Part shown: positions 3,497-31,405 of the stretch, in pieces
How positions within the stretch are numbered: position 1 is the first letter of the stretch
Layout of the letters: each line of letters starts with the position of its first letter
Assembly: GCA_002722955.1 (NCBI GenBank)
Contig: PBMZ01000102.1
Span: forward strand, 62,001 to 126,000
Source of the DNA: Planctomycetaceae bacterium
GTDB lineage: Bacteria > Planctomycetota > Planctomycetia > Planctomycetales > Planctomycetaceae
Reading direction: 5' to 3'
Length of the DNA: 64,000 nucleotides
The notes under the pieces: model-generated
Databases searched by the model: none
What the model saw: only the letters and a program-made list of their open reading frames with translations
Told to the model about the DNA's origin: nothing
Position numbers and translations under genes: made by a program

Positions 3497-4570
3497 TTAC
3501 CGTAACAGATTCAGGGGAACATCAAATTGTTCTGACAGCGCCAGCAAATCGGCGACTTCCTTATCGCTCAGCGGGATGCCGGTGCGCAGCCGTTCTTGTT
3601 GTGTTTCGTGTTCGATTTCTCCAGGAACGTAGACTCTGTCGTGTCCCGCGGCGGGGGCTGCTTGGTGGAGCGAGTCGATCATTGCGTCCATGGCGACTTT
3701 GAAATCGGATGGTTCGCGGAACATGTCGATGCGGAATGCTCCCATGAAGTGGGCGATCTTGTCTTGCGAGTAGCCATTGTCGCCGTCGGCCCAGCCTGCT
3801 GATAGCAGCGCGGTCATGGCTTCGACGATTATTGCCAGGCCGAAGCCTTTGTGGCCGCCGGTTTCTCGGGAGCCGCCGAGTGGGAGATAGATCTTGGCGG
3901 TTGCGGGATCGGATGTGGGATTTCCGTTTTCGTCTAAGCACCAGCCAATCGGGATTGATTCGCCGCGGTCTTTGGCGAACTCGACCTTGTTGACGGGGAC
4001 GACTGATGTCGACATGTCGAGGACAAAGGGTGGTTGCTTTTCACATGGAATCGCGACGGCGAAGGGATTCGTTCCGAACATTGGTTGCAAGCTGAATACT
4101 GGAGCCATGCCTCGTGAAGTGCCGTTGCCGTACAAGTGGCCGGACATCGATACGCCGATCATGTCATGCTCAACGGCCAAGTAGGCGAAGTAGCCGGCGG
4201 CTCCGAGATGGTTCGAGTTTCGGATGCTGACCATTCCGATTCCGGTTGCCGCTGCCTTTTCAATGGCGAGCCTCATGCCCCATGCCGACGCCACCAGACC
4301 GTTGCCATTGTTGCCGGTTGCTCTCGCGGACATTGGCGTTTCGAATTCGATGCCGATTTTCGCCTGTGGGTCGATGCTTCCGTCGACGATCGTGTCGACA
4401 TAGTACGACTTGAAATTGCGAACACCGTGGGTGTCGATGCCTCGCAAACTGGCGTAGACCAACGGCTCGATGACGTCGTCAGCGTCGTTGCTCGACAAGT
4501 CCGTTTTGGTGAGGACTTCTTGCGAGAATTGTCGAAAGTCGTTGGCAGTGATGAAGTGGTAGTCAGTCAT
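3497..4570 (-). CDS. Ldh family oxidoreductase (malate/L-lactate dehydrogenase type)
   Basis: SIRNSNHLGAAGYFAYLAVEHDMIGVSMSG, MFGTNPFAVAIPCEKQPPFVLDMSTSVV, GGHKGFGLAIIVEAMTALLSAG. Confidence 0.9.
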   Translation of the reverse strand: MTDYHFITANDFRQFSQEVLTKTDLSSNDADDVIEPLVYASLRGIDTHGVRNFKSYYVDTIVDGSIDPQAKIGIEFETPMSARATGNNGNGLVASAWGMRLAIEKAAATGIGMVSIRNSNHLGAAGYFAYLAVEHDMIGVSMSGHLYGNGTSRGMAPVFSLQPMFGTNPFAVAIPCEKQPPFVLDMSTSVVPVNKVEFAKDRGESIPIGWCLDENGNPTSDPATAKIYLPLGGSRETGGHKGFGLAIIVEAMTALLSAGWADGDNGYSQDKIAHFMGAFRIDMFREPSDFKVAMDAMIDSLHQAAPAAGHDRVYVPGEIEHETQQERLRTGIPLSDKEVADLLALSEQFDVPLNLLR

Positions 4571-4705
4571 TGGGTCCTGATGTTCGGCACAAAAGAAATT
4601 GGTCTCTTTCGAACGCGGAACAAATCCTGACAGCGGTCAATATTGCGAAGGGATGCTTCTTCAGAGCCTCTTCGAGGCTATTCTGATACGACATTTGAGT
4701 ATTAG

Positions 4706-5608
4706 TTACTTCAGCCACTGCTTGTTGATTTTGCAGACCATCGTGTACGCCGGGTCGTAGATGTTGCCAAGCTCGTAGCGGACGCACTGTGCCATCAGCA
4801 GATTCGCTCCGAGTGCGTCGAGGCCATAATCTTGCTGGAGCCATCGCAACATTTCGGTGGTGGCGTGCTGAGTGGCTTGGTCCAGCGGGCGAGCGTTTCC
4901 GACCGTCATGATCCAGTCGTCGTTTTCGGCTCGCGGCCAGCCGATTTTCTTGGCTTTGATGACTCGCAAGGTGACTCGTACGTCCATTGAGATCTCGATG
5001 CCTGAACCGACGATTTCGCCGTCGCCTTGAGCGGCGTGGCCATCGCCGAGGAAGAACAAAGCTCCCGGTTCGAAGACGGGAAAGTAAACTTTCGTGCCCT
5101 CGACGAAGCCTCGGTAATCCATGTTGCCGCCGTGTTCCGCCGAGGTCGCAGTCGAGATCGCTTGACCTCGAAACGCGGCGACACCGAAGCAGCCGATCAT
5201 CGGTTCGAGCGGAATCGTCAGTTCGCCCAACTTTGATTCGGGGGCAACCAGCCGAGCCGTCCAAGCATCGACGTCGACATCCCATTCGGCCAAACCGGCT
5301 TCGGGCAACTCGCTGATGTAAGTCGGATCGACAACATTCGGCGCAACGGCCGTTCCACAGAACCCGTAGCGGCGGTTCGGTTTAATCTCGTCCAATTCGA
5401 CGACCAGCGTCGAGCCAGGCTCGGCACCTTCGACGTAGAACGGCCCTGTTTGCGGATTACCTCGCGGCGCCGTTTGCTCGCGATTCGAGTCAAAACCGCG
5501 AGCGTCGACAGTCGTCGTGATGATCGTGTCACCATCAGCAACACGCAACACGGGCTCATGTGGTCCGAGAGAAATGTGATAATCGATCGGAGAGAAATGG
5601 TGTTCCAT
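4706..5608 (-). CDS. Acetamidase/formamidase family protein
   Basis: DYHISLGPHEPVLRVADGDTIITTTVDA, NPQTGPFYVEGAEPGSTLVVELDEI, EPMIGCFGVA, FFLGDGHAAQGDGEIVGSGIEISMDV. Confidence 0.9.
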   Translation of the reverse strand: MEHHFSPIDYHISLGPHEPVLRVADGDTIITTTVDARGFDSNREQTAPRGNPQTGPFYVEGAEPGSTLVVELDEIKPNRRYGFCGTAVAPNVVDPTYISELPEAGLAEWDVDVDAWTARLVAPESKLGELTIPLEPMIGCFGVAAFRGQAISTATSAEHGGNMDYRGFVEGTKVYFPVFEPGALFFLGDGHAAQGDGEIVGSGIEISMDVRVTLRVIKAKKIGWPRAENDDWIMTVGNARPLDQATQHATTEMLRWLQQDYGLDALGANLLMAQCVRYELGNIYDPAYTMVCKINKQWLK

Positions 5609-22458: not shown

Positions 22459-23697
22459 CTACGATACCGAAGTTTGATCTCGATTCAAGCGATCAATGAC
22501 GCCATTGGCCAATTGAGGTCGATGACGAAGCGCCCACGAGATCGCGTTCACCGCGGTTGTGCTTCGTAGTGTTCTCGAGATTGCTCGGCACATGCGTTGT
22601 CGGCGTCGAACTTGCCGCGCGAACGTTTTGCACCAGAACGCTTCGAAGTCAGACGCGAATTGACCGGTGTTAGGATGGAATTGCTGAGCCGCTTGCCAAG
22701 CTGACTCCAGCGCCCACGCGATTCCTTCGCCGGTGAAAGGTTCGATGTAGCCCACAGAGTCTCCCAGCAGGACGACTCGATTCGCGGCCAACGGTGTGAC
22801 CTGCCGAGTCAAATCCACGGTGCCCTTGAATTGAACGTTGGCAAGATTCACGCCCGCAATTCCCGATTGCGTCAAGATGTTGTCCACGGCGCTTGCCGGT
22901 GTGGTGTTTTCCATTAGAAGTCGCCGATCGACGGCCGCTGCCAAATTCCATTTGCCATCTTGCAGTTGGACGATGCCAACATATCCATGCTTCGACACGG
23001 CCATATGAATTGTGTTTGGTGATAACGAGAGTTCCTCGCGATCGATCATGGCACCGATGCCAAGACGAGCCCCGCGAGCTATGCTGCATCGGAAATCGCC
23101 CAGCTTCTCGACGAACTGCTTCGAGAGGCCAGTTGCGGAAAAAACAAATCGGGCTTGCGCCGAGACGGAATCGATATCGTTTTGATACAAGTCCACTTTC
23201 CGCGAGTCTTCGGCCACGTCGCCTAAGCTTGCGCGGACTCCGGGAAGAAAATCGGCTCCACTTTCGATAGCCACTTGAACTAACGCGGCGTCAAAATCGG
23301 ATCGGGCCACAGTAATCCCGGCGGGAATCGAAACTTCGAAACCTCCCAGACGGTTGTAAAGCTGAAAGGCGTCAATGGGCGAGCTTGGGAGTTTGCCGAT
23401 CCAATCATCAAGACCGGCACGCTTCAAGACGCTCAACGCGCTGCCGTTAATGCAAGCGCCGCAGACTTTCCAACGAGGAAACTGTCGTTGATCGACAAGC
23501 AAGACCTTTGCACGACGTTGGGCAAGCAAACTCGCCGCGAGAGCCCCAGCTGGACCGGCGCCGACCACGATGGCGTCCCAGATTCCTGAATCTCTCAATC
23601 GATCCCAATCAATCGAGGATGTCAGTTTGGGTCGGTTGCTGGTCAACGTCGAGCTGCTCAAGGTTTCCTCCATTCCATTAGAAACCTCTCTGGCCAA
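22459..23697 (-). CDS. NAD(P)/FAD-dependent oxidoreductase, geranylgeranyl-reductase-like
   Basis: WDAIVVGAGPAGALAASLLAQRRAKVLLVDQRQFPRWKVCGACING; VVLLGDSVGYIEPFTGEGIAWALES. Confidence 0.88.
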   Translation of the reverse strand: MAREVSNGMEETLSSSTLTSNRPKLTSSIDWDRLRDSGIWDAIVVGAGPAGALAASLLAQRRAKVLLVDQRQFPRWKVCGACINGSALSVLKRAGLDDWIGKLPSSPIDAFQLYNRLGGFEVSIPAGITVARSDFDAALVQVAIESGADFLPGVRASLGDVAEDSRKVDLYQNDIDSVSAQARFVFSATGLSKQFVEKLGDFRCSIARGARLGIGAMIDREELSLSPNTIHMAVSKHGYVGIVQLQDGKWNLAAAVDRRLLMENTTPASAVDNILTQSGIAGVNLANVQFKGTVDLTRQVTPLAANRVVLLGDSVGYIEPFTGEGIAWALESAWQAAQQFHPNTGQFASDFEAFWCKTFARQVRRRQRMCRAISRTLRSTTAVNAISWALRHRPQLANGVIDRLNRDQTSVS

Positions 23698-24434
23698 CGG
23701 TTCGAGAATGCGGCCTGTGTCAGTCCGGCACGATCACTCAACGCCCGAAACTCCTCGACTGTGAAGGCTGCTTGGATCGAGATCGGACCATCGATATGCA
23801 CAACGGGCGAACGAGAAATCAGACGCGGCACATAGTACGCCAGAAAGTACCCGAAACGACTCCGCAGGATGTCGTTGACTAAGACAAGTTGGCGTGTTGC
23901 CGCTGACATCTTTGCCAACAGCGTGACGATGTCGTCTTCGTCCAGGTGGTGCATGAACAAAGTATTGACGATGACATCGAAATCGTCGGGCATGGCGTCG
24001 TTGACCAGATCGAGCTGAAAGAACTCAACTGCTACTCCGTAAGGCTTCGCAACGTCGCGAGAGTGTTGTAGTGCCGTTTCGCTGATGTCGGCGCCATGTA
24101 CTTCGGCTGGGATGCCTCGCTTCTTTGCCGTTAAAGCCAAGCGACACGCGACATCCCCGCCACCGCAGGCGACGTCGAGAATTCGGATTGGTCGGTCTTT
24201 GATCGTGGCCGCGATCTTTCGAATCGGTCGCCACAGCGTCCGCGTTGTTAAGCTGAGCGAATTCGCCAGCCGCAAGACGTCGAGCGCTTCTCGGTGTAAC
24301 GAGTCCTGCAATTCGGGCTGATCCATGATCTCCGGTTGGCGGACTCGTGCGGGCATCTTTCGAAGCGATGGCTTCTGAATCGTGTAGTTGGAAAAGTCGA
24401 TTTCCACCTCAAGAGACCTTTGAATTCGATCCAT
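23658..24434 (-). CDS. Class I SAM-dependent methyltransferase
   Basis: RPIRILDVACGGGDVACRLALTAKKRGIPAEVHGADISETALQHSRDVA; DFDVIVNTLFMHHLDEDD. Confidence 0.85.
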   Translation of the reverse strand: MDRIQRSLEVEIDFSNYTIQKPSLRKMPARVRQPEIMDQPELQDSLHREALDVLRLANSLSLTTRTLWRPIRKIAATIKDRPIRILDVACGGGDVACRLALTAKKRGIPAEVHGADISETALQHSRDVAKPYGVAVEFFQLDLVNDAMPDDFDVIVNTLFMHHLDEDDIVTLLAKMSAATRQLVLVNDILRSRFGYFLAYYVPRLISRSPVVHIDGPISIQAAFTVEEFRALSDRAGLTQAAFSNRWPERFLMEWRKP

Positions 24435-24638: not shown

Positions 24639-24686
24639 GGTGTGTGACCAGCTGCGTCCCCGAACCCTTTCATGAAAGGACGACCG

Positions 24687-24824
24687 ATGACCTCGACCAA
24701 GCAAAAGAAGAAGGCGGTCCGAGAGATCGCGAAGCTGCGAACGTCGGATGGCTCGAAGCGAACCGCTGAACGCGGTTTCTGTCGATGCTGCCGTTGTTGT
24801 CGTTGCCGACTGTGTTTTTTCTAA
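24687..24824 (+). CDS. Putative RiPP precursor peptide, 45 aa, Cys/Arg-rich C-terminal core (not in the ORF track)
   Basis: Translation MTSTKQKKKAVREIAKLRTSDGSKRTAERGFCRCCRCCRCRLCFF*; AAAGGA Shine-Dalgarno-like sequence just upstream (catgAAAGGAcgaccgATG); directly upstream of a DUF692/MNIO gene on the same strand. Confidence 0.75.
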   Translation: MTSTKQKKKAVREIAKLRTSDGSKRTAERGFCRCCRCCRCRLCFF

Positions 24825-24850
24825 ACATCAGTCTTTGCTGAAGCCGGCGG

Positions 24851-24877
24851 CTTCGTGATCAAACCGTGTTCACGAAG
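24851..24877 (+). other. Hairpin between precursor and DUF692 gene (8-bp perfect stem), possible attenuator/processing element
   Basis: CTTCGTGA-tcaaaccgtgt-TCACGAAG. Confidence 0.45.
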
Positions 24878-24929
24878 TCGCTTGGCGACGGATTGCGAGT
24901 TTCTCGTCTTGTTGACAAAGGGTTATGAA

Positions 24930-25754
24930 ATGCTTCCCGCTATCGGATATGCCATTCGCGAACAAAATCGAATCGTGTTGGATGATCCAGCAATTAACGC
25001 CGCGGAAATCACCTTTGAGCGAGCTGACGATCCGTTACGGATCGAACGGTACGTTGGTGACTTAGACTTCGATCATGTCAGTGTGCATGCATTGAAGCTG
25101 TCGGTGGCAAGTCCCGAGCCGCCGGCCGAACACTATCTATCGGCTCTAAAGGCGATTGCGGAAGAGAACGGAGCGATCTCCGTTAGCGATCACTTAGGGT
25201 TTACACGAGACAGCGACAACGGTGTCGAGATCGGCCACTTCGCTGCTCCGCCGTATACCGAAGCCGCGCTGACGACAACGTGTCGAAACGTTGACTACAT
25301 CCAAGAATACTTTGGCGGCATTCGATTTTACTTAGAGAACATTGCCTACCTGTTCCGGATGCAAGGCACGATGAGCGAGTCGGAGTTCTTGTCGCGAATT
25401 CTTCGCAATACCGGATGCGGCTGGTTGCTGGATGTGACCAACGTCTACGCCAACGCGACGAACTTCAATTACGACGCTTACAACTTCATCGCCGAAGTGA
25501 TGCCGTACGCCACCGATGTTCAAATTCATTTGGCCGGTGGTTACTTCGACGAACGCGCCGACATGTATGTCGACAGTCACTCGGAGCCAATCCATGACGA
25601 AGTCTGGGACTTGTACAAGTTCTCGCTGGAGGTTGGTGTCGGCAAAATCAATTCCGTCTTTTTGGAACGCGACCAGAACTTTCCCGAGGAAGAAGGTTGG
25701 CGATCCGAGATCCGTCGAACTCGAGAGATTGCCGAAGCTGTTGTCCCCGTCTAA
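24930..25754 (+). CDS. DUF692 family multinuclear iron-dependent oxidative enzyme (MNIO; MbnB/TglH/ChrH/BufB-like)
   Basis: MNIO-like ligand motifs in order: ISVSDHLGFTRD, YLENIAYLF, WLLDVTNVYANATNFNYDAYNF, VQIHLAGGY, MYVDSHSEPIHDEVWDLY, SVFLERDQNFP. Confidence 0.9.
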   Translation: MLPAIGYAIREQNRIVLDDPAINAAEITFERADDPLRIERYVGDLDFDHVSVHALKLSVASPEPPAEHYLSALKAIAEENGAISVSDHLGFTRDSDNGVEIGHFAAPPYTEAALTTTCRNVDYIQEYFGGIRFYLENIAYLFRMQGTMSESEFLSRILRNTGCGWLLDVTNVYANATNFNYDAYNFIAEVMPYATDVQIHLAGGYFDERADMYVDSHSEPIHDEVWDLYKFSLEVGVGKINSVFLERDQNFPEEEGWRSEIRRTREIAEAVVPV

Positions 25755-25774
25755 AACGCTCGGAGTCCGACACG

Positions 25775-26530
25775 ATGAAAACTGAATCCGTTCAACAAGA
25801 CTACGCCAGTGCGATAAGAGCTTGGGCACATGGAATGGCAACGGCAAAGGTATCGGCCGTGGAATCCAGTCTGGCTCTTGGCGATTCGATGGATCGAGTC
25901 AAGATGTTCGTCGAGGGAAACTATGAGAAACGAATCGACAAACTGCTTCGGCAAGCCGAGTTGCTGGAAGACGTCGTCGATGATCTCGAGGATCGTGTCA
26001 TCTCCTTTATGAAGGAAGTGCCTTTGGGGGCTTACGACACGGGGTGTAGTGATGGCGACCGCTTTCTGGGTTGGTTGCAGGATGTTGGCCAGTTGACTCT
26101 TGAACAAGAGGATCACGTCGAATGTCAGCGAGCTCGACTAAAATTGGAAGATGTCGCGCGAGCAAACCGCGTCGGTCATGTTTGGTTTCAGGACCTTTGG
26201 AGTCTGACAGAAACAGCACTCGACGAATTCGACGTCGATTCGCACGATCGAATTCACCTAAACCCGATTCACGTTGAGACTCGATTCGAAACGACATCGT
26301 TACTTGACGACGATGACGAAGCACCGACGGACGTCGTTGTCTATGCGTGTGAAAACAACATGCGCACGGCAGTCCTCGAACCGATCGCGCAGCGCGTTTG
26401 CGATGTGCTCCGTCAGGATGGTCCGAAATCAATTGACGATTTGAAGGACAAGCTCTTGGAATTCGACAAGGACGAGATATTTGAAGTCTGCCGTGATTCC
26501 GTCGAGATGGGTTTGATGGCACTGGGCTGA
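25775..26530 (+). CDS. MNIO-operon partner protein of unknown family (251 aa; helical N-terminus, winged-helix-like C-terminus)
   Basis: MKTESVQQDYASAIRAWAHGMATAKVSAVESSL...; C-terminus LEPIAQRVCDVLRQDGPKSIDDLKDKLLEFDKDEIFEVCRDSVEMGLM; starts 20 nt after the DUF692 stop. Confidence 0.7.
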   Translation: MKTESVQQDYASAIRAWAHGMATAKVSAVESSLALGDSMDRVKMFVEGNYEKRIDKLLRQAELLEDVVDDLEDRVISFMKEVPLGAYDTGCSDGDRFLGWLQDVGQLTLEQEDHVECQRARLKLEDVARANRVGHVWFQDLWSLTETALDEFDVDSHDRIHLNPIHVETRFETTSLLDDDDEAPTDVVVYACENNMRTAVLEPIAQRVCDVLRQDGPKSIDDLKDKLLEFDKDEIFEVCRDSVEMGLMALG

Positions 26531-26549
26531 GAAATACAACGGTAAATCA

Positions 26550-27467
26550 ATGTCTACAACAAACACAGCCGCGCCCACATGGGATCAATCCCTGTTCGAG
26601 AAATGCGAATTCGATGTTGCGAACGGTGTCGGAGCCAATCAGCTTTGGACACTGTTCCGGCAGCATCGTGGTCGTTTGACTTTGACCTACACGCTGTTCA
26701 ACATCGAGAACCTGCTCCGGCTAGCGCAGCCATTCGTGTTAGGCTTGGCGATCAATGACCTGCTGAATGGGACATACTTCGGACTTGGTCTTTTCATCGT
26801 CCAGCACATTGCCCACTTGACGATTAGCTCGTGTCGCCAAATGTACGACACTCGTGTTTACAGCCAGATGTATACCTCAATGGCAACCAACGTGATCGTC
26901 GAACAGCGAAGTCGCGACGTGAACGTTTCAGCGGTCGCCGCCAGATCGGCACTTTCCAGGCAGTTCATCGAGTTCTTTGAGCGATCCGTGCCGCTCACGA
27001 TTCGATCTGCCTATTCGATTGTCGGCGCGTTGATCATGCTGACGATTTACGACCCGATGTTGCTGCCGCTGTGTCTTGTGTTGTTGATTCCCGCCGCATT
27101 GATCAATCGAGTTTACGCAAGGCAAGTGTTTCGCTTGAGCGGCGGTCTACACGACACGCTGGAAAACGAAGTTGATGTGATCGAGCCCGGCAGCCGGTCT
27201 CAAGTTCGCGAGCACTTCGCAACCGCCGCAGGATGGCGGATCAAGCTATCGGACACCGAGGCGATCAACTTCTGTTTGATGGAATTGTTCGTGCTCTCGG
27301 TGATGGTTGCCGCGCTGTTGAGAATCTGTGATCCAGCGACAGTCACAGCGGGAGCGATCTTCGCGGTGTTTCGTTACGCGTTGATGTTGATCATGGGATT
27401 GGATGCCGTACCAAGGCTGGTCCAACAAATCAGTCAACTACGTGAACTCAAACGCCGGCTGGCTTAA
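26550..27467 (+). CDS. Stand-alone six-TM ABC-transporter membrane domain protein (ABC_membrane_3-like), no nucleotide-binding domain
   Basis: NGVGANQLWTLFRQHRGRLTLTYTLFNIENLLRLAQPFVLGLAINDLLNG...; about six hydrophobic segments; no Walker A/LSGGQ in 305 aa; next same-strand gene is not an ATPase. Confidence 0.75.
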   Translation: MSTTNTAAPTWDQSLFEKCEFDVANGVGANQLWTLFRQHRGRLTLTYTLFNIENLLRLAQPFVLGLAINDLLNGTYFGLGLFIVQHIAHLTISSCRQMYDTRVYSQMYTSMATNVIVEQRSRDVNVSAVAARSALSRQFIEFFERSVPLTIRSAYSIVGALIMLTIYDPMLLPLCLVLLIPAALINRVYARQVFRLSGGLHDTLENEVDVIEPGSRSQVREHFATAAGWRIKLSDTEAINFCLMELFVLSVMVAALLRICDPATVTAGAIFAVFRYALMLIMGLDAVPRLVQQISQLRELKRRLA

Positions 27468-28457: not shown

Positions 28458-30449
28458 ATGGCATCTGAAGTTCAACAAGTGTCCGAACAAGCGATCGACG
28501 AAATCGAAGAGCTATTGCGCGAGTTGGCGGTTTTGGCTCAGTCGGATGTGTCGTCGAATCACTTTCATGGGGATTTGTTGTCTCGGACGGTTCAATCATT
28601 GGCGGCGTTGGCAGGGGCGATTTGGCTGATCGATGGCGACAGTGGTGACGTGCTGATCGAGACGGAACAGAACTTATCCGCCGTGCTCGACTCAGAGGCG
28701 CAATCAGCACAGCACCAGCAACTGCTGATGTGGAGCACTCAACAGAGCGAGCCCAGGGCGATTCTGCCGCAATCCAATTCGCCAGTTACGAATCCCACCG
28801 ACTGTTTACTCCTGCTGGCTCCGATCACCGTCGACGATCGGACAGTTGGAGTGATCGAGGTTTTCCAACGCAGCGAAGCATCGCCGGCAGCTCAAGCGGG
28901 CTTTTTACGATTCTTGACGGCGATTAGCGAGCTGGCTTCGGACTATCAACGACACGATCAATTGCGCAGCTTCAAAGATCGCGCCGAATCGTGGGGGCAG
29001 TTCGAGCAGTTCTCGGAACAGATCCATCAGGACTTGGACTTGGATGGAACGGCCTTTCGAGTAGCCAACGATGGACGCGTGCTGGTTGATTGCGAACGTC
29101 TTTCCGTCGGTCTGATTCACGCGGGGCGCCGTGCCAAGATCCTGGCCGTAAGCGGGCTCGACATTGTTGATCGGCGATCGAATAGTGTGCGGCGATTGGA
29201 ACAATTGATAAAGCAAGTTATTCGCGGCGGCGAGCCGCTGTGGTACTTCGATCAAGCCGCTGAACTCGCACCGCAAATCCAAAAGCCGCTCGACGCGTAC
29301 TTAGATGAATCCAAGGCGCGGCTGCTGGCCGTGTTGCCGCTTTATCGAACGTCTCGAAATACCGGTTCGAAAGAAGCCTTCGCCGCGATCGTGATCGAAC
29401 GTTTCGAAAGAGTCCAAGCCGACGACTTGTTCCGGCAGCGAGCCGAATCCGTGCGACGGCAAAGTGAATTGGCGCTGGCCAACGCCGTTCAATACAGCTC
29501 GCTACCGATGCTGTGGCTTGTGAATCTGTTGGCTCGACTGAAGTGGTACACACGCTTAAGGCAGTTACCGCGGACTCTGTTCGTGCTGGCAGTCATCAGT
29601 GCGATCATCTGGGCCGCGGTGTTTGTGAAGACTGACTTCGTGATTGAAGGCTACGGTGAACTGCAACCAGAAATCCAGCGAGAGATCTTTGCTCCGCATG
29701 ATGGCATTGTGAGTGAGCTGCCGGCAGTGCACTCGTTGGATGTCAGCCAAAACGAGACGCTCATTCAACTGACGAATGCCGACTTGGCCGTCGAATACAC
29801 GCGCGTGCTCGGCGAGATTGACGTGGTCGATCAACGTACAACTTCGATCAACACCGAGTTGCTTGGGCTACGGCAACGAAATGACCCAATGAGTGCGCAG
29901 CGAGAATCTCAACTGATCGCCGAGCAGCGCGAATTGGACAAAAAACTGGTGAGCTTGAAGAAACAACGCGATTTGATCGATGAGCAGCGTGGGCAATTGG
30001 AGTTGAAGAGTCCGATTGATGGGCGTGTTTTGACTTGGAAAGTTGCTCAACGTTTGGCGAATCGACCGGTTTCGCGCGGTGTCTCGCTGTTGAAGATCGC
30101 CAAATTGGATGGAAACTGGCTATTAGAGATTCGAGTTGCCGATGAGGATATTGGGCACGTAATGAATGCCCGCAAGGCCATCAAACCCGATCTGGATGTT
30201 TCGTTCGTCTCGGCAACAAATCCAGGGGTGACACACTACGGCACAATCTTGAAGGTGGCCAACTCGACTCAACTTGACGATTCCTTGGGGCCGTCCGTTC
30301 TTGTGACCGTCAAAATCGATCCAACCAAAATCAAACACCTGCGTCCCGGTGCTTCCGTAATCCCCAAAATCCATTGTGGTCAGGAGGCGATCGGTTATGT
30401 TTGGCTTCGGGAGTTGATCGAAGCGGTGCAGAAGCGAATACTATTCTAA
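28458..30449 (+). CDS. HlyD-type efflux adaptor with GAF-like N-terminal cytoplasmic region
   Basis: N-terminal LAALAGAIWLIDGDSGDVLIE...CLLLLAPITVDDRTVGVIEVFQRSE; TM at ~aa 375 (LFVLAVISAIIWAAVFV); then EIFAPHDGIVSELPAVHSLDVSQNETLIQL...LKSPIDGRVLTW...VSRGVSLLKIAKLDGNWLLEI. Confidence 0.8.
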   Translation: MASEVQQVSEQAIDEIEELLRELAVLAQSDVSSNHFHGDLLSRTVQSLAALAGAIWLIDGDSGDVLIETEQNLSAVLDSEAQSAQHQQLLMWSTQQSEPRAILPQSNSPVTNPTDCLLLLAPITVDDRTVGVIEVFQRSEASPAAQAGFLRFLTAISELASDYQRHDQLRSFKDRAESWGQFEQFSEQIHQDLDLDGTAFRVANDGRVLVDCERLSVGLIHAGRRAKILAVSGLDIVDRRSNSVRRLEQLIKQVIRGGEPLWYFDQAAELAPQIQKPLDAYLDESKARLLAVLPLYRTSRNTGSKEAFAAIVIERFERVQADDLFRQRAESVRRQSELALANAVQYSSLPMLWLVNLLARLKWYTRLRQLPRTLFVLAVISAIIWAAVFVKTDFVIEGYGELQPEIQREIFAPHDGIVSELPAVHSLDVSQNETLIQLTNADLAVEYTRVLGEIDVVDQRTTSINTELLGLRQRNDPMSAQRESQLIAEQRELDKKLVSLKKQRDLIDEQRGQLELKSPIDGRVLTWKVAQRLANRPVSRGVSLLKIAKLDGNWLLEIRVADEDIGHVMNARKAIKPDLDVSFVSATNPGVTHYGTILKVANSTQLDDSLGPSVLVTVKIDPTKIKHLRPGASVIPKIHCGQEAIGYVWLRELIEAVQKRILF

Positions 30450-30493
30450 TAATCGATTCGCCCGTTACACGTCCTACGACGCAGGCTTGAACC

Positions 30494-31405
30494 ATGTCTC
30501 TGACTGCCTTACTTCTTGCGGCCGCGCTGAACCAGCAGCCTTTAGACTCGAACGAAATCCCAGTCGAAAAGGCGTTGCTGACGATCATCGACGCCGTCAC
30601 TGTCGCGCCGACGGAGTCGGGAAAGCTGACGAAGGTCAGCGTCTCCGAAGGTGACATCGTCCGCAAGGGCACTTTGCTTGGGCAGCTTGACGATGAGATC
30701 GAGCGTTTAGAGTTGCAACGAGCCGCGACGGATCTGGACATCGCTAAAGAGCAAGCGGAAAACGATGTGCAAATCCGGTATGCGCGCAAGGCGTCGCAAG
30801 TTGCCGACGTCGAGTTGGAGCGGGCCAAGGAATCCAACGATCGAGTCAACAACGCGGTGACTCAAACCGAACTGGACAGTCTGCGATTGCTGTCGGAAAA
30901 GGCGAAATTGGAAATTGAGCAAGCGGAATTCGAACAACGCACTGCCAAGCTGGGCCTCAAGTTAAAAGCCAACGCTCTTGATGCCGCTCGTGTCAAAGTC
31001 GCTCGCCGAAAGATCACGTCGCCAATCGCCGGAGTGGTCGTCGAAATCAACCACCGGGCGGGTGAAGCTGTGGATACTCAGTCCAACGCATTTCGAATTC
31101 TCAACACGTCAAAGTTGCGGGCCGAGTTTCGCTTGCGAGCTTCCATGGCCAGCTTCAGTCTGAAAGGGCGTCCGGTCAAGCTGCTGACTCGCATCGCGGG
31201 AAACAAGGAGACCGAGTTCCGCGGTCGAGTTGTGTTCGTCAGCCCGGAAATCAACGCGTTGAATGGCATGGTTCGTGTCTGGGCGGAAATCGATAATCCC
31301 GATGGCTTGCTGAGGCCAGGAATTGAAGTGCCAATCACCATCATGCCCGACGGTGAAGCGACCGCTCAAAGGCCGAATTCCAAAAAAGAGGAATCCGCAC
31401 GCTAA
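30494..31405 (+). CDS. HlyD/RND efflux periplasmic adaptor subunit
   Basis: VTVAPTESGKLTKVSVSEGDIVRKGTLLGQLDDEIERLELQRA; ARRKITSPIAGVVVEINHRAGEAVDTQSNAFRILNTSKLRAEF. Confidence 0.85.
   Translation: MSLTALLLAAALNQQPLDSNEIPVEKALLTIIDAVTVAPTESGKLTKVSVSEGDIVRKGTLLGQLDDEIERLELQRAATDLDIAKEQAENDVQIRYARKASQVADVELERAKESNDRVNNAVTQTELDSLRLLSEKAKLEIEQAEFEQRTAKLGLKLKANALDAARVKVARRKITSPIAGVVVEINHRAGEAVDTQSNAFRILNTSKLRAEFRLRASMASFSLKGRPVKLLTRIAGNKETEFRGRVVFVSPEINALNGMVRVWAEIDNPDGLLRPGIEVPITIMPDGEATAQRPNSKKEESAR

Follow-up and report, generated by a model that had tools for sequence, protein, structure and literature searches.

The window, a stretch of 64,000 nucleotides from a Planctomycetaceae bacterium (contig PBMZ01000102.1, positions 62,001 to 126,000), carries four closely packed genes on the plus strand which almost certainly constitute a cassette for a ribosomally synthesized and post-translationally modified peptide (RiPP). 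They code for a short precursor peptide with a conserved leader and a variable core, a linked modifying enzyme of the multinuclear non-heme iron-dependent oxidative (MNIO, DUF692) family, a partner protein and a membrane protein of family PF13748 (Table 1). Our preferred reading is that cysteines of the precursor are oxidised and that the product binds metal; to this reading as a whole we give a probability of roughly 0.6. A preliminary description of the same DNA had proposed an MNIO RiPP pathway, with a DUF692 protein carrying the expected ligand motifs, a third gene coding for the MNIO partner and a stand-alone ABC_membrane_3-type protein lacking a nucleotide-binding domain; the positions of the four genes and each of these assignments were upheld by the analysis reported here.

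The precursor peptide gene

The precursor encoded in the window, MTSTKQKKKAVREIAKLRTSDGSKRTAERGFCRCCRCCRCRLCFF, is 45 amino acids long and has seven cysteines within 12 residues. In a scan covering 85,462 species genomes, 36 loci were found to have an ortholog of the MNIO gene, and at 30 of these a homologous, conserved Cys/Arg peptide is encoded upstream of it. The homologs are 40-59 amino acids long, with a leader of the type KKAVREL..LRT and a HRCCRCCRCCRCR-like core, and no Pfam or NCBIfam model matches the peptide. At 28 loci the peptide is of the CCR or CxxC type and lies 80-430 nt upstream of the MNIO gene; the other two, L063 and L070, have the same leader followed by a different core, AFCHGCHA. 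The genes for these two variants (L063 4681-4932; L070 4340-4606) lie further upstream, at about 1.1-1.4 kb from the MNIO gene, and the CHGCH of their cores also fits the CXXCH heme-attachment pattern. Five genomes of the same family as that of the window have MNIO orthologs of 64-74% identity; in three of them a Cys/Arg peptide is found directly upstream, and one of the five is cut by a contig end inside the peptide. A contig end lies just inside the precursor at L035/L069 (...RCW*), and L046 has three tandem copies.

Judged by its conservation, the open reading frame is a real gene, far beyond chance, because a profile of the precursor finds it in its own 7.1-Mb genome with E 1.6e-16 against 0.009 for the next best match, and because it recurs at orthologous loci. 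That next best match, a candidate second precursor with the sequence HCCWCCR (G000:C112), is limited to the Cys part and was judged to be due to chance. In alignments of close relatives the substitutions in the precursor are biased towards the third codon position and mostly synonymous (13, 19 and 88 changes at positions 1, 2 and 3 in seven pairs of equal-length relatives, the pairs not being fully independent). The preliminary description had named two findings that would speak against it, the want of a conserved Cys/Arg frame upstream of orthologous DUF692 genes and frameshifting substitutions in the peptide; on both the outcome favours its reading. Ribosome-binding sites of the AGGA type precede nearly every copy. 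An alternative in-frame ATG at 24672 was rejected in favour of 24687 because the homologs align from the latter ATG and the ribosome-binding site belongs to it.

No precursor was found at the locus in L058, L061 and L064. L058 also lacks the partner gene; the gap at L061 and L064 should not be read as absence from the genome, because these loci belong to the same clade as genome G003, in which the precursor gene is unlinked. The association holds in a sample of 390 genomes of the phylum, where the precursor profile matches five genomes and high-scoring MNIO orthologs (>400 bits) occur in exactly the same five. The hypergeometric probability of this overlap is 1e-11 when the genomes are treated as independent and phylogeny is ignored, a figure which is weaker than it looks because the genomes share ancestry. 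In two of them, G003 and G296, the precursor gene is on another contig than the MNIO gene, and G296 has two copies of it. All but three of the ortholog loci bear planctomycete names, and those three (L051, L060 and L062), labelled Candidatus Kuenenia, are metagenome bins of the same phylum; the MNIO clade is apparently confined to planctomycetes.

Leader and core

The conserved part of the leader reads KKAVREL..LRT....K.A.RH, and the core differs between peptides in both length and register (RCCRCCRCCRCW, RCCRCCRCWF, CCCRCCRCRR and RYCRSCRSCYSCRSC are examples). Among 34 distinct peptides the number of cysteines ranges from 4 to 11 and the net charge from +8 to +13, and no leader contains a cysteine. 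The preliminary description had taken the CRC triplet as the repeat unit, and this had to be given up: the commonest cysteine contexts over the 34 peptides are C-C-R (84 CCR) and R-C-C (80 RCC), so that the unit of the family is CCR/RCC and CRC is one register of it. The CRC-CRC-CRC register is peculiar to the copy in the window, which also lacks the usual HR before the first cysteine; an H/R-R/H pair at this place is conserved in many members. The C-terminal residue varies freely (W, R, F, H, C, K, N). Cysteine is the multiplied residue in every core, with varied spacing in L068 and L071. These two have the longest and most divergent cores (L071 3558-3737, core RCCRYCRSCRSCYSCRSCRSCRSCRSCGCH with 11 cysteines; L068 5501-5641, core FCRGCRRCRSCRRCRRCRC) and have CxxC spacing instead of CC. 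Reading of the sequences gave no Sec signal peptide in any member: the N-terminus is highly charged and has no hydrophobic segment.

The MNIO enzyme

The enzyme matches PF05114 with 183 bits (cut-off 25, E 6.8e-54), and its relatives in the PDB are 3bww, TglH and MbnB. Positions H54, D88, H89, E137, D169, N172, H201, D216, H218 and E247, whose predicted roles as ligands come from the alignment to 3bww, MbnB and TglH, are invariant in all 40 orthologs compared. These orthologs form one clade, separate from the other sampled planctomycete MNIOs (31-37% identity). The best NCBIfam matches are the bufferin maturase BufB (152 bits) and HvfB (140 bits). Position 250, which follows the ERD motif holding the presumed catalytic-base Asp, is Gln in 37 of the 40.

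Two more MNIO genes are found in the own genome of the window, at about 32% identity (L001, L002; G000:C1:21976-22758 and G000:C123:17588-18370). A divergent homolog with 253 bits to the clade profile was seen in a sixth genome, G123 (L118, G123:C15, about 4102-5319 on the minus strand; also L098). It has lost nearly all ligand positions, its genome has no precursor match, and its sequence suggests a pseudoenzyme, either degenerate or repurposed.

The partner protein

At 35 of the 36 loci the partner gene follows the MNIO gene, L058 being the sole exception. A profile search against PDB sequences gave no usable match; matches to DUF5805 and VbhT were under the cut-off and were ignored, and Pfam gave no match to the DUF2063 signature of PME-type 1 proteins. 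An AlphaFold2 model built on a six-sequence alignment (pLDDT 82.5) predicts an N-terminal part made up of helices only, then beta strands, and a C-terminus which is winged-helix-like and resembles a RiPP recognition element (RRE). The four top Foldseek matches of the model are all MNIO partners, namely TglI (8hci, E 4e-4; 8hi7, E 1.4e-3), NGO1945 (3dee, E 3e-3) and, weakly, MbnC (7tcr, E 0.52). On the strength of this modelled fold, the place of the gene after that of the MNIO and the lack of a DUF2063 signature, the protein is therefore classed as PME-type 2 as defined in the main text of PMC12452194. The same text pairs signal-less precursors with PME-type 2 partners, which matches the planctomycete cassette.

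The membrane protein

The last gene product matches PF13748 (E 5.4e-50). Its model (pLDDT 78) has six long helices, and the structure matches MsbA, BmrA, TAP and PCAT1 with probability 1.00; as modelled, the protein is the membrane domain of a type-IV ABC exporter without the ATPase. No nucleotide-binding domain is present on the protein or on the next gene, since the reading frame ends at 27467 and the gene after it runs on the opposite strand. When the open reading frames of 28 non-redundant loci were clustered, none of the gene families conserved in the cassettes was an ATPase.

PF13748 is linked to the MNIO system within the cassette as well as by its distribution among genomes. A PF13748 gene lies downstream of the partner gene at 22 of the 36 loci, and strong PF13748 matches occur in 5 of the 390 genomes, four of which carry the peptide (2.6e-8, treating genomes as independent). 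Of the loci without an adjoining copy, four (L042, L047, L061 and L062) stop at most some 1.1 kb away from the MNIO gene. Unlinked copies are found about 16 kb away in G003 and on another contig in G011; in G383 the gene is absent from the whole genome. The membrane protein is thus not strictly required, as ten loci uncut by a contig end have no adjoining copy and G383 has none at all. We found no literature assigning a function to PF13748. Six-transmembrane proteins of Cronobacter and Pantoea are PF13748 members as well, with about 32% identity over some 300 amino acids, and likewise have no ATPase domain; at the two plasmid loci examined the enterobacterial gene is located beside a TetR regulator, with no MNIO gene nearby.

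A model for the pathway and its alternatives

The model which we propose starts with the RRE-like domain of the partner, which would most likely bind the leader of the short signal-less precursor. The partner would then dock the core on the MNIO, and the multi-iron centre of the enzyme would oxidise several core cysteines, most likely to 5-thiooxazoles with the loss of four hydrogens each. The product would be an Arg-rich, Cys/azole-rich peptide, most likely binding copper or another soft metal, and the ABC-exporter-type membrane protein would be its likely path over the inner membrane. The parts of the model differ in strength. Sequence or structure speak directly for the genes, the precursor family, its co-occurrence with the MNIO, the intact ligand positions and the folds of the partner and the membrane protein, while the steps from leader binding through cysteine chemistry to metal binding and transport are inferred. 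Modification of the cysteines is very probable. That the chemistry is of the thiooxazole type is somewhat favoured by analogy with the nearest characterised enzymes: products of the bufferin and HvfB maturases bear Cu-binding thiooxazoles (PMC12668002; main text of PMC12452194). Metal binding as the function of the product is rated at slightly better than even, and the chance that the membrane protein exports it at about even.

Several observations weigh against the model. The scores of the MNIO lie far under the curated NCBIfam cut-offs (BufB 152 against 310, HvfB 140 against 360, MbnB, TIGR04159, 46 against 325, and likewise for others), and its reaction is for this reason not assigned by homology. 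In thiooxazole-forming MNIOs, Phe250 of FonB and Asp251 of BufB2 have been tied to the residues flanking the modified cysteine (PMC12668002); by our own mapping through the 3bww alignment and the ERD-x motif, Gln250 reads as the corresponding selectivity position, with neither residue. A cysteine before a charged residue is left unmodified by FonB (PMC12668002), whereas the cysteines here precede Cys or Arg; the vicinal cysteines and Cys-Arg sites are unlike those which FonB favours. The PF13748 gene is missing beside the MNIO gene at the ten uncut loci mentioned above, for most of which unlinked copies were not searched. The cassette contains no protease and no ATPase, and the clustering found no metal-homeostasis gene conserved in the cassettes.

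A bolder form of the model, which we put forward as tentative and on balance doubtful, is that the MNIO turns a contiguous run of vicinal cysteines (RCCRCCRCCRC) into a closely spaced series of neighbouring sulfur heterocycles, with the ATPase-less ABC membrane domain as dedicated membrane partner of a planctomycete RiPP class. If true, this would be a pattern not shown for characterised MNIOs in the literature compared.

The most credible alternative, although an unlikely one, keeps the same RiPP pathway and lets its product be a secreted bioactive cationic peptide, for example an antimicrobial, so that the membrane protein would serve export or immunity and metal binding would be incidental. 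The high positive charge of the precursors, the lack of conserved metal genes nearby, the likeness of the membrane protein to peptide exporters including TAP and PCAT1, the scattered distribution (5 of 390 genomes) and a leader that is conserved while core and C-terminus vary would all suit such a product. The cassette has, however, neither a protease nor an immunity-like gene, its membrane protein is without an ATPase domain, and the characterised MNIO maturases closest to this one have Cu-binding products (PMC12668002).

It is less probable still that the repeat cysteines are not the target of the MNIO, which would act instead on, for example, the C-terminal residue or His/Arg by the core, and that the free thiols make the peptide a small metallothionein-like binder. 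Known MNIOs also act on Asp, Asn and Phe according to the main text of PMC12452194, the H/R-R/H pair before the first cysteine is conserved in many members, and the vicinal Cys-Cys and Cys-Arg sites differ from those favoured by FonB (PMC12668002). A C-terminal target is disfavoured because the residues there vary freely, and cysteine is what has been multiplied in every core, even if its spacing changes in L068 and L071. We consider it very improbable that the peptide frame is a chance one or a regulatory leader peptide (a Cys/Arg attenuator) with the MNIO substrate encoded elsewhere: a hairpin 3' of the frame at many loci resembles attenuation and the run of Cys/Arg codons could stall ribosomes, but the leader is conserved at the protein level with mostly synonymous change, L046 has its three tandem copies, the partner gene follows the MNIO gene everywhere but in L058, and the precursor genes that lie apart from the MNIO operon in G003 and G296 rule against an attenuator acting in cis.

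The locus and its surroundings

Table 1. Features of the cassette, in coordinates of the window
Feature	Position	Strand	Basis
Precursor gene's ribosome-binding site, AAAGGA, 6 nt upstream of the ATG	24675..24680	+	Sequence; nearly all homologs have AGG/AGGA-type sites ahead of the start codon
Gene of the 45-aa precursor peptide (leader, about residues 1-31; Cys/Arg core starting at residue 32)	24687..24824	+	MNIO-linked homologs; codon-position bias; unique in own genome
Core repeat CRCCRCCRCRLC, presumed modification site	24780..24815	+	Cys only in the C-terminal core in 34/34 distinct peptides; RCC/CCR unit
Intergenic hairpin (precursor/MNIO), which may partly terminate transcription or stabilise the RNA	24843..24886	+	RNAfold, z -3.1
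MNIO (DUF692/PF05114) enzyme gene, 275 aa	24927..25754	+	Pfam E 6.8e-54; ligand positions; PDB relatives
MNIO partner gene, 251 aa, PME-type 2 by predicted fold, 20-nt gap after MNIO gene	25775..26530	+	AlphaFold2 model; Foldseek; position after MNIO
ABC_membrane_3 (PF13748) six-helix membrane protein gene, 19-nt gap after partner gene	26550..27467	+	Pfam E 5.4e-50; fold; locus conservation

Hairpins of differing sequence occur at the same place, 3' of the precursor stop codon, at many of the loci L039-L074 (RNAfold, z about -2.4 to -9.5); the L049-L072 group and L065 have a weaker hairpin or none. In the group L039/L040/L044/L073 the stem ACTGCCGGACTGAT...AGTCCGGCAGT is well conserved. From sequence and predicted folding it is plausible that the hairpin gives partial termination or protects the RNA, which would raise the amount of precursor over that of the enzyme.

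The cassette is flanked by genes on the opposite strand, to the left those for a methyltransferase and a FAD enzyme and to the right that for a GXGXG protein. Apart from synteny inside one close group, the clustering found no further gene family conserved around the cassette, and PADLOC gave no match to anti-phage defence systems. On the left (22462-24434, minus strand) the gene for the S-adenosylmethionine-dependent methyltransferase overlaps that for the FAD-dependent oxidoreductase, divergent from the cassette, and the pair may form a further small biosynthetic unit. Two adjacent genes for HlyD-type membrane-fusion proteins (28458-31402, plus strand), the first with a weak GAF match, lie about 1 kb downstream, separated from the cassette by an opposite-strand gene.

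Comparison with known systems

The number of new peptide chemistries traced to MNIO enzymes is growing fast; according to the main text of a recent survey, many precursors of minor MNIO groups are still unidentified (PMC12452194). One minor clade now gains a precursor family with a clean division into leader and core, together with a partner whose fold is known and a membrane protein that recurs. The cassette offers a direct test of MNIO action on vicinal cysteines and on cysteines before Arg, and it gives the ATPase-less PF13748 family a testable role.

The bufferins, oxazolin and captophorins (BufABC, HvfABC, FonABC) share with the planctomycete cassette the gene order precursor-MNIO-partner and the repeated core cysteines. 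BufB and HvfB give the best NCBIfam scores of the planctomycete MNIO, yet these are under the maturase cut-offs, and the partner has the fold of the DUF2063-RRE protein NGO1945 without the DUF2063 signature. In contrast to bufferins and captophorins, the planctomycete cassette has no Sec signal peptide and no DoxX, it has an ABC-type membrane protein in addition, its core is CCR and not EGKCG, Cys-Lys or DUF2282, and its MNIO has Gln at what we map as the Phe250/Asp251 selectivity position.

The pearlin system (TglA-TglHI) likewise has a small signal-less precursor and a PME-type 2 partner, TglI being the top fold match. TglA, however, gains its C-terminal cysteine post-translationally, whereas the planctomycete cysteines are encoded and repeated, and the pearlin tailoring genes are not found in the planctomycete cassette. 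In the methanobactins (MbnA-MbnBC), too, an MNIO and a partner act on cysteines of a short signal-less precursor; the planctomycete system differs in the 46 bits of its MNIO to the MbnB model (cut-off 325), in its dense cysteine repeat and in the weak fold match of its partner to MbnC (E 0.52).

The adjamnio families, as described in the main text of PMC12452194, likewise have predicted Cys-containing precursors beside an MNIO gene, several of them signal-less and with PME-type 2 partners. Adjamnio-I (122-293 amino acids) and adjamnio-IV (119-146 amino acids, with CxxCC) are longer, and adjamnio-7 has another motif, CxxC. That main text, which leaves the alignments of Fig. S3 and the small-ORF table S2 outside the comparison, mentions no adjamnio with CCR repeats or from planctomycetes, and the searchable open papers gave no earlier description of a CCR-repeat peptide family. 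The view taken in the preliminary description, that the precursor is not of a known type, is upheld by comparison with Pfam, NCBIfam and the survey's main text. The CCR-repeat peptide and its MNIO cassette are probably a new MNIO-RiPP family, set apart from the adjamnio families by the main-text descriptions of the latter (PMC12452194).

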